DNA of 64,000 nt, from the NCBI RefSeq assembly GCF_001476285.1, contig NZ_LDRU01000027.1:1-64000 (forward strand). Reading direction: 5' to 3'. A program made the translations under genes and the position numbers. This DNA comes from Microbacterium testaceum. Lineage in GTDB: Bacteria; Actinomycetota; Actinomycetes; Actinomycetales; Microbacteriaceae. A model generated the notes under the pieces. That model was not told the origin of the DNA, did not search any database, and saw nothing but the letters and a program-made list of their open reading frames with translations. Numbering within the stretch: the first letter of the stretch is position 1; the number at the start of each line of letters is the position of its first letter. Shown piece after piece: positions 60,316 through 62,893 of this stretch.

Positions 60316-60732
60316 ATGAGCCGAACGCACCGCCGCATCGCCGCGACCCTCACGACCGCCTCCGCGCTCGCCCTGACGGGGTGCTCTCTGGACGGGCTGA
60401 TCTGGGGTCCCGAGGGCGCGAGAGTGATCGACACCACGCGAAACCTCATCGAGGCCGCGGCAGCGGGAGAGGTAGAAGATACGGTGTGCGACGGGCGGGA
60501 GCTGGATCTCGGCTCCCCCGCCGACTGGAACGGACTGTCCGCCGAGGAGCCCGAGCAGTTCGTCGCCGAGTACTGGCCCGAGCAGGCCGAGCTCGACCCG
60601 ACGTGGAGCATCAACCTCTCGCTGCCCGCCGGGCGGGTGGCATCCGGAGTCGAGTATCCGGGAGACCTGTTCTACCGGGAGGACGACGGGGGCCTGTGCC
60701 TCGTCGACATCGCATGGTGGACCGTGGAGTGA
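60316..60732 (+). CDS. small lipoprotein
   Basis: 138 residues. Signal peptide and lipobox LTGC (C23); mature domain with two Cys (VCDGREL, GLCLVD) and many Trp/Asp/Glu. Function unknown. It is divergent from the 59316 gene. Confidence 0.75.
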   Translation: MSRTHRRIAATLTTASALALTGCSLDGLIWGPEGARVIDTTRNLIEAAAAGEVEDTVCDGRELDLGSPADWNGLSAEEPEQFVAEYWPEQAELDPTWSINLSLPAGRVASGVEYPGDLFYREDDGGLCLVDIAWWTVE

Positions 60733-60751: not shown

Positions 60752-60777
60752 GGGCCCCCACCCGAAGGTGGAGGCCC
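60752..60777 (-). terminator. original terminator of tRNA-Lys (now separated)
   Basis: Hairpin GGGCCTCCACC-TTCG-GGTGGGGGCCC followed by TTTCTCG on the minus strand. It lies beyond the displaced tRNA-Lys half, 120 bp from any minus-strand gene, as expected if an insertion split it from the tRNA. Confidence 0.75.
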
Positions 60778-60782
60778 GGTGC

Positions 60783-60825
60783 GTGCACCCCCTGGGACTC
60801 GAACCCAGAACCCACTGACTAAGAG
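60783..60825 (-). repeat. tRNA-Lys 3' half remnant (att-type repeat)
   Basis: 43 bp that match 61898-61940 with one difference: the 3' half of tRNA-Lys from the anticodon loop to the discriminator base and beyond. Direct orientation. Typical of the far attachment site left when an element inserts in a tRNA gene. Confidence 0.85.
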
Positions 60826-60883
60826 ACATCATGGCCGCCGCGGAGGAAGAGGCTGGAAGTGTCACTCCATTCCGACGCGCCAA

Positions 60884-61762
60884 CTAGGGACGCCGCGCGA
60901 TCCCACCGTTGCTGAACAGATTGACAAGAGTCACAGCCAGCGTGACCGCGGCTTCGGCGGCGGCCTGTGTGGACGGAACATAGCTCGCCGTTCCGGGGTG
61001 TCGGTCGCTATGCCCGGACCACAATGCTTGCATCATGCCCAGGACAACGTTTTGGCTCGGATTCTGAGCGTGCTCCTTGATGAATGGCAACTTCCAGTCC
61101 CCCTGGGTGCGCATCTGCCCCATGGCCTTGCCCAATGTCGCGGTGCTGTCATTCTTCATGACCAACGGCAACACCACCGCCTCGACCGCTTCGATTGCCT
61201 TTCTGTAGCCGAGGTCCGGTTGAGGGCTCCTGCCATATGTCGCATGCCATGCCTCCGACAGCAGTCGACCAGCATCTCCCGGCAGGGACATAGCCGCGTT
61301 CGCTGCGTCGCGCACGCCAGCAGGAACCCTGTACTCGAGCGCTGCGAACCCATCGCGAGTACCAACCTGCCATTCAGAGCCGCCATCACTGAGGATCGCT
61401 TCGAGAGTAACTAGCGGGTCGTGAAAATCTTCGATTCCTGCCTCTGCCAACTCTTCGTTGACCTGGCCCGCTCGCGCTACAAGGAAGTCGAGGAAATCCA
61501 TGAATTCGTCTTCTTCCATTGCCTCGTAGAGTACGCTCACGCCCTCGCGGGCGAACAACCCGACCAGAGTGGTTTGTCTTCTCGTGCGCGTCTCGAACTC
61601 CTCCATTATCGACGCGTCTGGCTGAGGCCCCATGAAGGAGTTGAAAGGTCGGGAAGCCACCGAGTCGGCCCATTCGAATATGCGCCGACGAATCCACATA
61701 GGCACGCCAGCATGCAACGCATCGAGGTTGGCAGAGTCAGCGCCGCGAGGTTTCCAGACCAT
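60884..61762 (-). CDS. island gene, possible HEPN/abortive-infection-like protein
   Basis: 292 residues. Codon use differs from neighbours (CCT, TCT, GCT, ATA, GAA, CAT in the first 30 codons). N-terminal 60 residues basic and Trp-rich; a helical middle with acidic runs; a C-terminal region with KAIEAVEAVVLPL (188-200), TATLGKAMGQ, GDWKLPF, LGMMQALWSG-HSDRHPG (H251, D253, R254, H255) and a final amphipathic helix (AAAEAAVTLAVTLVNLF). This layout recalls HEPN/AbiJ-type C-termini of phage-defence proteins, an inference from memory only. ATG at 61762 is the likely start. Confidence 0.65.
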   Translation of the reverse strand: MVWKPRGADSANLDALHAGVPMWIRRRIFEWADSVASRPFNSFMGPQPDASIMEEFETRTRRQTTLVGLFAREGVSVLYEAMEEDEFMDFLDFLVARAGQVNEELAEAGIEDFHDPLVTLEAILSDGGSEWQVGTRDGFAALEYRVPAGVRDAANAAMSLPGDAGRLLSEAWHATYGRSPQPDLGYRKAIEAVEAVVLPLVMKNDSTATLGKAMGQMRTQGDWKLPFIKEHAQNPSQNVVLGMMQALWSGHSDRHPGTASYVPSTQAAAEAAVTLAVTLVNLFSNGGIARRP

Positions 61763-61849
61763 GCATCCATCCTGGCCGACCCGATGGCTCGGACCATCAG
61801 GGACACACGCGCTGATTTCGCGCTGATTCCGGAACCGGGACGAAACGGA

Positions 61850-61893
61850 AGAGTCCCCGGACCTCCGTTTTGCTCGGAGATTCCGGGGACTCT
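61850..61893 (-). terminator. terminator of tRNA-Lys (island-borne)
   Basis: Arms AGAGTCCCCGGA and TCCGGGGACTCT with an inner CTCCG/CGGAG stem, 6 bp after the tRNA 3' end, followed by T-rich TTCCGTTTCGT on the minus strand. Confidence 0.75.
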
Positions 61894-61898
61894 GTCGG

Positions 61899-61971
61899 TG
61901 CACCCCCTGGGACTCGAACCCAGAACCCACTGATTAAGAGTCAGTTGCTCTGCCGATTGAGCTAGAGGTGC
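61899..61971 (-). tRNA. tRNA-Lys (anticodon CTT)
   Basis: Minus-strand cloverleaf: acceptor GCACCTC/GGGGTGC (one G-U), anticodon arm ACTGA-CTCTTAA-TCAGT with CTT, T-arm GGTTCGAGTCC. CCA is not encoded. Its 3' half was probably supplied by the inserted element. Confidence 0.97.
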
Positions 61972-62074
61972 AGGCTGATCCGCCTCAGATTTGCTTGGCG
62001 AACCGAGGGATTACGTTACCAGGCGTGACGCGACCGCGCCAAATCGGCCCGGGGTCGCCCGTTATCCTGGAGCC

Positions 62075-62893
62075 GTGTCCCCGACTCCCGACGAGATCCT
62101 CCCCACCCTCGCCGACGACCTCGCGCTCGCTCTGCGACTGGCGGACGCCGCCGACGCGGTCGCCATGGCGCGCTTCGACGCCGCCGGCCTGCGCATCGAC
62201 ACGAAGGCCGACCGGACGCACGTGACCGAAGCCGACCTCGCGACCGAACGGGCGATCCGGGAGATCCTGGATGCCGAGCGGCCCGGCGACGCCGTTCTGG
62301 GCGAGGAGTACGGAACGTCGGGTGACACCGCGCGGCGTTGGGTGATCGACCCGATCGACGGCACGCACAACTACATGCGCGGCATCCCGATCTGGGCGAC
62401 GCTGATCGCCCTCAGCGTCGGCGAGGTTCCCATGGTGGGTGTGGTGAGCCAGCCGGCCCTCGGGCGCCGCTGGTGGGCCGCGACGGGCCACGGGGCGTGG
62501 ACGAACACGCCGGCCGATGAACCACGCCGCATCCACGTCTCGGCTGTCGACGACGTCGCGAAAGCGAGCGTCAGCTTCCAGAGCGTCGAGCAGTGGCGCG
62601 ACGTCGACCTCCTCCCGGCCCTGGACCGGCTCACCCGCGCCGTCTGGCGCGACCGGGGGTACGGCGATGCCCTGCCCTACATGTGGCTCGCGGAGGGCCG
62701 CCTCGAGCTCGTGGCGGAGTTCGGCGTGAAGGAGTACGACGTCGCCGCCCTCGCGCCGATCGTGCGCGAAGCGGGCGGCCGCTTCACCGCCTTCGACGGA
62801 TCCGACCGCCTCGACGCCGGCTCGTCGTTCGCGACCAACGGCATCCTGCACGACGACTTCTTCCGCCTCACGCACGACGAGGGCACCGCGTGA
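62075..62893 (+). CDS. hisN: inositol monophosphatase family, probable histidinol-phosphatase
   Basis: 272 residues: metal motifs LGEEYGTSGD, WVIDPIDGTHNYMRG (motif A) and KEYDVAALAPIVREAGGRF (motif B). Actinobacterial members of this size commonly hydrolyse histidinol phosphate, but an inositol-phosphatase role is possible. GTG start after GGAGCC. Overlaps the next lipoprotein gene by 4 bp. Confidence 0.88.
   Translation: MSPTPDEILPTLADDLALALRLADAADAVAMARFDAAGLRIDTKADRTHVTEADLATERAIREILDAERPGDAVLGEEYGTSGDTARRWVIDPIDGTHNYMRGIPIWATLIALSVGEVPMVGVVSQPALGRRWWAATGHGAWTNTPADEPRRIHVSAVDDVAKASVSFQSVEQWRDVDLLPALDRLTRAVWRDRGYGDALPYMWLAEGRLELVAEFGVKEYDVAALAPIVREAGGRFTAFDGSDRLDAGSSFATNGILHDDFFRLTHDEGTA

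Follow-up and report, generated by a model that had tools for sequence, protein, structure and literature searches.

We analysed a stretch of 64,000 nucleotides of Microbacterium testaceum DNA (the window) and confirmed that a 1.1-kb segment close to its end is a site-specific insertion into a tRNA-Lys gene. The insertion restored the tRNA and placed a terminator-like hairpin behind it. The segment carries a single gene and no recombinase, and it looks like an unusually clean example of a tRNA island without an integrase. Taking the locus together with its counterparts in related genomes, we think it quite probable that the segment is a decayed and immobile remnant of a small element, once made up of an attachment (att) site, a cargo gene in a fixed slot and an integrase, which has kept a defence-type gene.

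Structure of the inserted segment and its empty site

The features of the locus are listed here with their coordinates in the window and their strand.

61897..61971, minus strand: intact tRNA-Lys (anticodon CTT; ARAGORN), the 3' part of which is attL
61898..61940, minus strand: attL, one of the two 43-bp repeat copies, which begins in the anticodon loop and extends to the tRNA 3' end
60783..60825, minus strand: attR, the displaced 3' half of the original tRNA-Lys, with one mismatch
61850..61893, minus strand: element-borne terminator-like hairpin directly behind the tRNA, replacing the displaced one (from the fold)
60752..60777, minus strand: original tRNA terminator hairpin, now beyond the tRNA remnant (from the fold and the position in relatives)
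61808..61825, minus strand: CAGCGCG-N4-CAGCGCG, two 7-mers at a period of 11 bp, a candidate arm-type-like integrase site
60884..61762, minus strand: sole gene of the segment, 292 aa, with an N-terminal part without assigned domain and a predicted HEPN-like C-terminal domain
61991..62893, plus strand: flanking chromosomal gene beside the tRNA, a syntenic marker of the site (ORF as listed); judging by a motif, its product may be inositol-monophosphatase-like
60316..60732, plus strand: flanking gene on the other side, which adjoins the tRNA in insert-free relatives (tblastn); from reading the ORF, its product may be lipoprotein-like

A preliminary description of the locus, made from the sequence alone, had noted that a 43-bp repeat of the tRNA-Lys 3' half, with one mismatch, bounds a 1.1-kb segment. 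The two copies (60783-60825 and 61898-61940) are indeed identical at 42 of 43 positions and form the top direct repeat of the region, and a search of the whole window found no further copy with at least 36/43 identical positions. The mismatch sits in the displaced copy, and the copy within the tRNA equals the tRNA of the nearest relative; the same tRNA was found at 71-75 of its 75 bases in 29 relatives. The sequence between the repeats (60826-61896) is about 1.1 kb long, and the whole element, both repeat ends included, measures 1189 bp. The GC content of the segment is 60.4%, compared with 68.1% and 71.3% in its flanks, and none of 299 stepped intervals of equal length elsewhere in the window was as GC-poor (minimum 63.9%).

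The second terminator that had been proposed inside the segment, behind the intact tRNA, folds well as RNA (-33.9 kcal/mol, z -4.9), while the outer hairpin is part of a fold of -30.4 kcal/mol (z -3.4). The description of one gene and no recombinase between the repeats also held, since the 292-aa ORF was the only gene found and neither the Pfam search nor a six-frame search with an integrase profile revealed a recombinase in the segment. Having no integrase of its own, the segment would be a remnant or a dependent element rather than an autonomous island. A Pfam search of the strain's own draft genome gave two tyrosine recombinases, both of which appear to be XerC/XerD-like, together with a resolvase-type protein; none of the three lies on the contig of the window. 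When the same genome was searched with the DNA of the whole element, one full and two partial matches were returned, so that the CTT tRNA-Lys is apparently a single-copy gene. The contig runs about 1 kb beyond the end of the window.

A search with the tRNA and the adjoining gene gave matches in all 295 congeneric genomes, and the best 29 non-self loci were examined. In four of these 29 nearest relatives (G247, G170, G070 and G280) an uninterrupted tRNA-Lys is directly joined to the GGGCCTCCACC hairpin, the arrangement that the preliminary description had suggested looking for, and the outer hairpin of the window can therefore be identified as the original tRNA terminator. Identity over the tRNA and the adjoining gene is 96% in G247 and 89% in G280. 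When the flanks of the window were joined across the segment and aligned to G247, the 490 query bases gave 464 identities, 21 mismatches and 11 gap positions, and the joined flanks aligned straight through the junction in G170, G070 and G280 as well. Behind the hairpin, the next gene of the window (60316-60732) is present whole or nearly so in two of the four empty-site relatives (L052 and L054) and was not found at the empty site of G070. At the empty tRNA-Lys site of G247 (L051), the lipoprotein-like gene matches as two overlapping pieces about 1.2 kb apart, which might reflect a different insertion, a duplication or a rearrangement at the same spot. Nor is the 292-aa gene a constant neighbour of this tRNA in related genomes, since none of the 29 relatives carries it in the stretch examined behind the tRNA (1.5 kb in 26 relatives and 0.6-1.4 kb in three).

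Because four near relatives have the empty site, the segment is a true site-specific insertion, as its layout had suggested. The empty site in G247 implies that the insertion took place after the split from G247, or that it was cleanly lost there. The preliminary description had also raised an ancient tRNA duplication. An old partial duplication, or the acquisition of a tRNA remnant with the gene a mere neighbour, could be considered on the ground that partial tRNA copies are common in genomes and have several causes (excerpt of PMC9897764). Since the joints of the empty site are exact in four relatives, a partial tRNA duplication is ruled out. The composition break at the segment argues against such an origin as well, as does the fact that members of the same gene family follow five types of tRNA, several of them with repeats of a tRNA half, and we leave this explanation next to no probability.

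The remaining relatives have varied sequence and hairpins behind tRNA-Lys, as expected for an integration hotspot. A strict pattern for a displaced tRNA 3' half matched in five of the 295 genomes, the own genome included, and in two of the five the displaced half lies about 72 kb (G009) and about 68 kb (G153) from the tRNA locus. The window locus thus shows what is expected of a genomic island, with the 3' part of the tRNA directly repeated at both ends, a restored tRNA, an empty site in relatives, foreign composition and a patchy distribution; the integrase of its own that an autonomous island would carry is absent from the window copy.

The 292-residue protein and its gene family

The window protein had no match in Pfam, NCBIfam or PADLOC at an E value of 1. 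Weak matches to the PADLOC defence-candidate model PDC-S32, which we found no mention of in the literature searched, were obtained for four of 13 family members (best E value 5.8e-5), spanning roughly residues 86-216 in the three members that matched on rescanning. The structure model (pLDDT 81) has a helical C-terminal domain, at about residues 160-287, for which VIA-align retrieved 1ufb (Z 11.6), 2hsb (11.2), 1wol (10.3), sacsin (10.2) and 1o3u (10.1), and Z values near 11, that is below 13, are by VIA-align's own note inconclusive for a helical bundle. Four of these top five rows are titled HEPN (Z 10.1-11.2), with ROQ domains close behind (9.0-9.9) and Csm6 (8.0), AbiA (7.5) and AbiV (9bj7, 6.5) lower down. 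The best Foldseek row was an archaeal HEPN protein (E value 0.067, probability 0.99), with no row at E <= 0.001, and a sequence search of solved structures gave nothing convincing (best E value 0.028). From these comparisons of the model, a HEPN-like C-terminal domain is the assignment that we favour.

In the 13-sequence alignment R254, H255 and G257 (R-H-x-G) are invariant and H173 is nearly so, and the usual Rx4-6H catalytic motif is absent from the 13 rows. The R-H-x-G residues follow the penultimate helix of the model and precede the last one, where by our reading they may occupy the place of Rx4-6H. The AbiV and AF0298 (2hsb) families of HEPN proteins are described as likewise keeping the R, and typically not the H, of Rx4-6H and as having another conserved H (excerpt of PMC3710099). 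The window protein resembles these two families in its predicted fold, judging by the Z values for 2hsb and 9bj7. It is unlike them in its invariant R254-H255-x-G257 and nearly invariant H173, in its different N-terminal part and in having no Pfam match.

The gene is full length in the window. Compared with its relative in Agromyces mediolanus (L027), it is identical at 66%, 72% and 37% of first, second and third codon positions, and this pattern is as expected for a gene under constraint. Judging from the predicted fold, the weak PDC-S32 match in the family and the other cargo found at the same place in related elements (see below), we consider the product to be, most likely, a defence-type protein akin to the HEPN proteins of abortive infection, and the segment gene probably encodes an anti-phage protein.

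Homologues were found in 22 of the 295 congeneric genomes at E <= 0.001, and a 13-row profile found them in 22 of 398 genomes of the bacterial family, the own genome being included in both counts. A scan of genome contigs gave a single relative, the one in A. mediolanus. None of 174 pattern matches in virus contigs was confirmed as a relative and phage records gave no match at 1e-5; among plasmids, 37 records matched, all at less than 60% identity and 29 of them from Streptomyces.

The loci were split by score into 22 close-homologue loci, the window and L027 included, and 19 distant ones. The three weakest homologues (L025, L100 and L101) belong to neither group and had no same-strand upstream tRNA in the stretch examined. 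L030, with two tandem family genes, was counted as one locus; in L033 the contig ends behind the gene and in L118 ahead of it, and the search for att repeats did not include L117 and L118. In 13 of the 22 close-homologue loci the gene lies 110-430 nt downstream of a tRNA or a copy of a tRNA 3' half, on the same strand, and we refer to this place as the slot. The tRNA is Lys in seven of them (the window, L030, L031, L034, L037, L038 and L105), Gln in three (L027, L032 and L102), and Asn (L036), Thr (L108) and Met (L110) in one each. By the same means none of the 19 distant homologues had a tRNA or att copy in that position (L118 being cut by the contig end), and the comparison of 13/22 with 0/19 gives a Fisher p of 3e-5 with kinship among the loci ignored.

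The nine close homologues that have no upstream tRNA or att copy (L033, L035, L039, L103, L104, L106, L107, L109 and L111) could mean that no integrase element ever carried the gene as cargo, and that it was instead captured between att copies by some other recombination while serving a housekeeping role. The absence of the distant homologues from the slot would agree with this, one of them (L044) lying inside an island flanked by tRNA halves but in the opposite orientation. The position and orientation of the gene are, however, consistent in all 13 slot loci, pieces of integrase lie immediately behind it in L032, L108 and L110, and its spread over the genus is patchy, which together make such an origin very unlikely.

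Clear left and right att copies were present in six of the 13 loci and bound 1.1 to 6.5 kb; apart from the window these are L030 (4.6 kb), L031 (6.5 kb), L036 (3.7 kb), L038 (6.2 kb) and L108 (about 2.6 kb, with copies identical at 44/44 positions). The right att copy of L027 is just 19 bp long. In L038 (G254) a remnant forms the left att copy, and it is followed by two more copies, the last at 39/43, so that elements are seemingly stacked there. The tRNA-Pyl called by ARAGORN in L081 and L102 appears to be a tRNA-Gln-like remnant. In L030 (7824-9594; G260) a single tRNA-Lys att precedes a tandem pair of family genes, the second being closer to the window gene than the first (55% compared with 37% identity). 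In L105 (G453) the gene is preceded, at 132 and 344 nt, by two tandem tRNA-Lys(CTT) that are both called intact, and not by a tRNA with a remnant. Many close homologues have a CCARRATG-like motif a few nucleotides before the start codon (25 nt upstream considered), which could be a candidate -10 box of a leaderless transcript.

In the family tree the window gene groups with those of L027 (Gln) and L108 (Thr) and with the second gene of L030. Genes at Lys sites are scattered throughout the tree, which suggests that the slot gene has switched tRNA addresses over time. The HEPN enzyme PrrC attacks tRNA-Lys (excerpt of PMC3710099). The idea that the gene's own tRNA is the target of its product was not supported, as the family occurs at five tRNA types.

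Shared left ends, integrase decay and proposed origin of the element

Most of the loci at tRNA sites have a common left end, in which att is followed by a terminator-like hairpin, a pair of 7-mers at a period of 11 bp and then the gene, and the window shows this layout in full. Six stretches were folded, and besides that of the window the hairpin behind att gave z values of -4.1 (L031), -4.7 (L036), -4.2 (L145) and -6.2 (L154). Pairs of 7-mers were scanned for 40-130 nt behind att, at period 11 and at eight other spacings. Exact pairs at period 11 occurred in seven of the 13 family loci (0-2 at other spacings), and pairs with at most one difference in nine (0-5 at other spacings, with five at period 12). 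The corresponding counts were 5/10 and 8/10 in ten integrase elements of the genus (other spacings 0 and 0-1), and 3/28 and 7/28 in the downstream regions of 28 tRNA-Lys genes of relatives (other spacings 0-1 and 0-5). The 7-mer is CAGCGCG in the window, L030, L031, L034 (where the pair lies outside the scanned stretch), L036, L037 and L038, and CCCCTCG in the Gln element L027. Similar pairs exist near the right ends of L030, L036 and L038; in the 1189-bp element of the window the left pair is the sole CAGCGCG pair with at least 5/7 matches in both halves. Position and period suggest that the pairs may be arm-type integrase sites. As a genome-wide tag for such elements, CAGCGCG-N4-CAGCGCG was rejected, since it occurs at background level (156 of 295 genomes) with a backwards control about as frequent, and the pair is informative solely through its place behind att.

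A profile made from eight integrases of these loci was used to search stop-to-stop pieces of at least 25 residues up to 12 kb behind att, where the sequence extends that far. Integrase pieces were found in eight of the 13 family loci and a complete integrase in none. In terms of the 393 model positions, the pieces cover 125-389 in L031, 165-385 in L027, 278-388 in L110, 307-383 in L030, 297-358 in L038, 343-392 in L037 and 338-381 in L108, and in L032 the integrase (94-365) is broken across two frames. Most of the pieces are C-terminal, and their strand is opposite to that of the slot gene. The same search found none in the window, L034, L036, L102 and L105. At the same tRNA-Lys in another genome (L154; G027), the left end and a scrap of integrase are present without a slot gene, with a right att copy (42/45) 3.0 kb on. 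Behind the integrase scrap of the tRNA-Thr element L108 (10064-11226; G370), between its perfect 44-bp att copies, lies a transposase pair, presumably IS3-like by its motifs.

Integrases of this clade, fragments included, were found in 22 of the 295 congeneric genomes at an E value of 1e-15, and the same search found none in the own draft genome. Thirteen regions (L145-L157) were fetched from the larger list of integrase matches, and three were excluded from the comparison of layouts, because no tRNA was found in L147 and L156 and the tRNA of L155 is far from the integrase. Seven of the other ten elements have a full integrase, a rate that is not a fair one because the elements were picked by their integrase match. 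Most of them show the same order of att, hairpin, slot gene and integrase. The slot holds a TIR protein in L149 (tRNA-Thr, 3.3 kb), with the gene reading towards the tRNA, a product that appears to be of membrane type in L145 (tRNA-Pro, 3.4 kb), a protein kinase in L153, where the integrase is shortened, and an N6/N4 methylase with an unmatched protein in L146. In this last element, at tRNA-Tyr (L146:10727-12185; G109), the methylase and the second protein are possibly a restriction-modification pair. Exceptions to the layout are L149 with its reversed gene, L148 and L157, in which the slot is empty, and L150, which has no 7-mer pair. L150 (1746-12433; G081) is 10.6 kb long, lies at tRNA-Lys(TTT) and has an att copy identical at 45/45 positions, an integrase and a second recombinase. 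A PHROGs comparison identified integrase, primase-like and excisionase-like proteins in it, so that by gene content the larger forms resemble phage satellites or integrative plasmids.

Our best reading is that the window copy represents the extreme of a decay series, in which the integrase and the right arm site would have been lost and the slot gene and both att copies kept. The element would have inserted at tRNA-Lys with a tRNA 3' half and terminator-like hairpin of its own and, as the anatomy and the empty site indicate, left the tRNA whole and properly ended. Judging from the relatives, its HEPN-type gene would have occupied the cargo slot first behind the attachment site, with a convergent tyrosine integrase behind it. 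A deletion from just past the stop codon of the slot gene to near attR may then have removed the integrase and the right arm site, and the remainder would be fixed in place with just the slot gene persisting. The window holds no integrase fragment, and its former integrase is thus deduced from the relatives. In 12 comparisons, the 58-nt stretch that separates the stop codon from attR matched no related right end or 3' flank above the 95% shuffle level, so that the end points of the deletion are putative. The product of the slot gene would act on RNA upon phage infection, and phage protection through its HEPN-like domain may be the reason that the gene stays.

The preliminary description had offered two explanations for a one-gene island of this kind, a trimmed remnant and a minimal element mobilised in trans. 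Integrase fragments in eight of the 13 family loci, an intact integrase in none of them and the missing right arm favour the first, and the second found no support. Mobilisation in trans, by a related tRNA-Lys integrase from another element or a phage, would require no more than the two att copies, the left arm site and one gene. It would fit the near-perfect 43-bp att pair and the one arm-type-like pair that are retained, the presence in the genus of long open frames for integrases of this clade, and the insertions at this tRNA-Lys in other strains, two of them leaving remnants about 68-72 kb away. It is unlikely, however, since the left CAGCGCG pair stands alone in the 1189-bp element with no right arm site, the own draft genome has no matching integrase, there is no second one-gene copy among the 22 close-homologue loci, and the relatives carry decayed integrases in cis. 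A trans-mobilised element would be marked by an arm at each end and a helper integrase in the own genome, and neither the right arm nor the helper was found here, nor was the integrase that lies behind the slot gene in the related elements. That the 1.1-kb unit is a working minimal defence cassette, moved between tRNA-Lys sites by integrases of related satellites or phages, seems quite unlikely to us; such a cassette would stand to tyrosine integrases as MITEs do to transposases and CALINs to integrons.

Relation to known elements and significance

Additive islands behind tRNA-Lys(CTT) have been described in freshwater Methylophilaceae, in which the final 20 nt of the tRNA are repeated, with sizes of 330 bp to 42 kb and 1 to 63 genes (excerpt of PMC10872708), so that a one-gene island at tRNA-Lys(CTT) is already on record. 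Those islands belong to another phylum and have a shorter repeat than the window. The putative arm-type site, the slot gene family and the decay of the integrase are features of the present elements that go beyond the description given in that excerpt. P4-like phage satellites have a defence hotspot beside the integrase with changing cargo, including TIR, HEPN, RM and others (excerpt of PMC9122126). The present elements are similar in being small and integrative and in having one changing defence system at a fixed place next to int. They differ from P4-like satellites, as these are portrayed there, in the placing of the slot, which has att on one side and the integrase 3' end on the other, in their occurrence in another bacterial family and, for the window copy, in having no integrase.

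Tycheposons combine a tRNA border with a tyrosine recombinase, and CALINs and MITEs are derivatives without the enzyme that may be moved in trans (excerpts of PMC11389934 and PMC10872708). The window copy differs from these in lacking a second arm site, and its own genome yielded no helper. Integrase-less satellites in chromosomes have been taken as probably inactivated (excerpt of PMC10690885). Given these precedents of one-gene islands, defence genes beside an integrase and satellites without one, the kind of element is already known; among the matches listed for islands of the genus and for integrase loss, no title concerned this locus.

The related loci provide a graded series that runs from elements with a whole integrase, through those in which it is frameshifted or shortened, to the lone gene between att copies in the window. 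The gene next to att survives while mobility is lost, which makes the proposition that defence cargo outlives its vehicle directly testable. The locus also points to an unnamed HEPN-like family, and the fixed cargo slot in the small tRNA elements of this bacterial family is a place in which to seek further defence genes.
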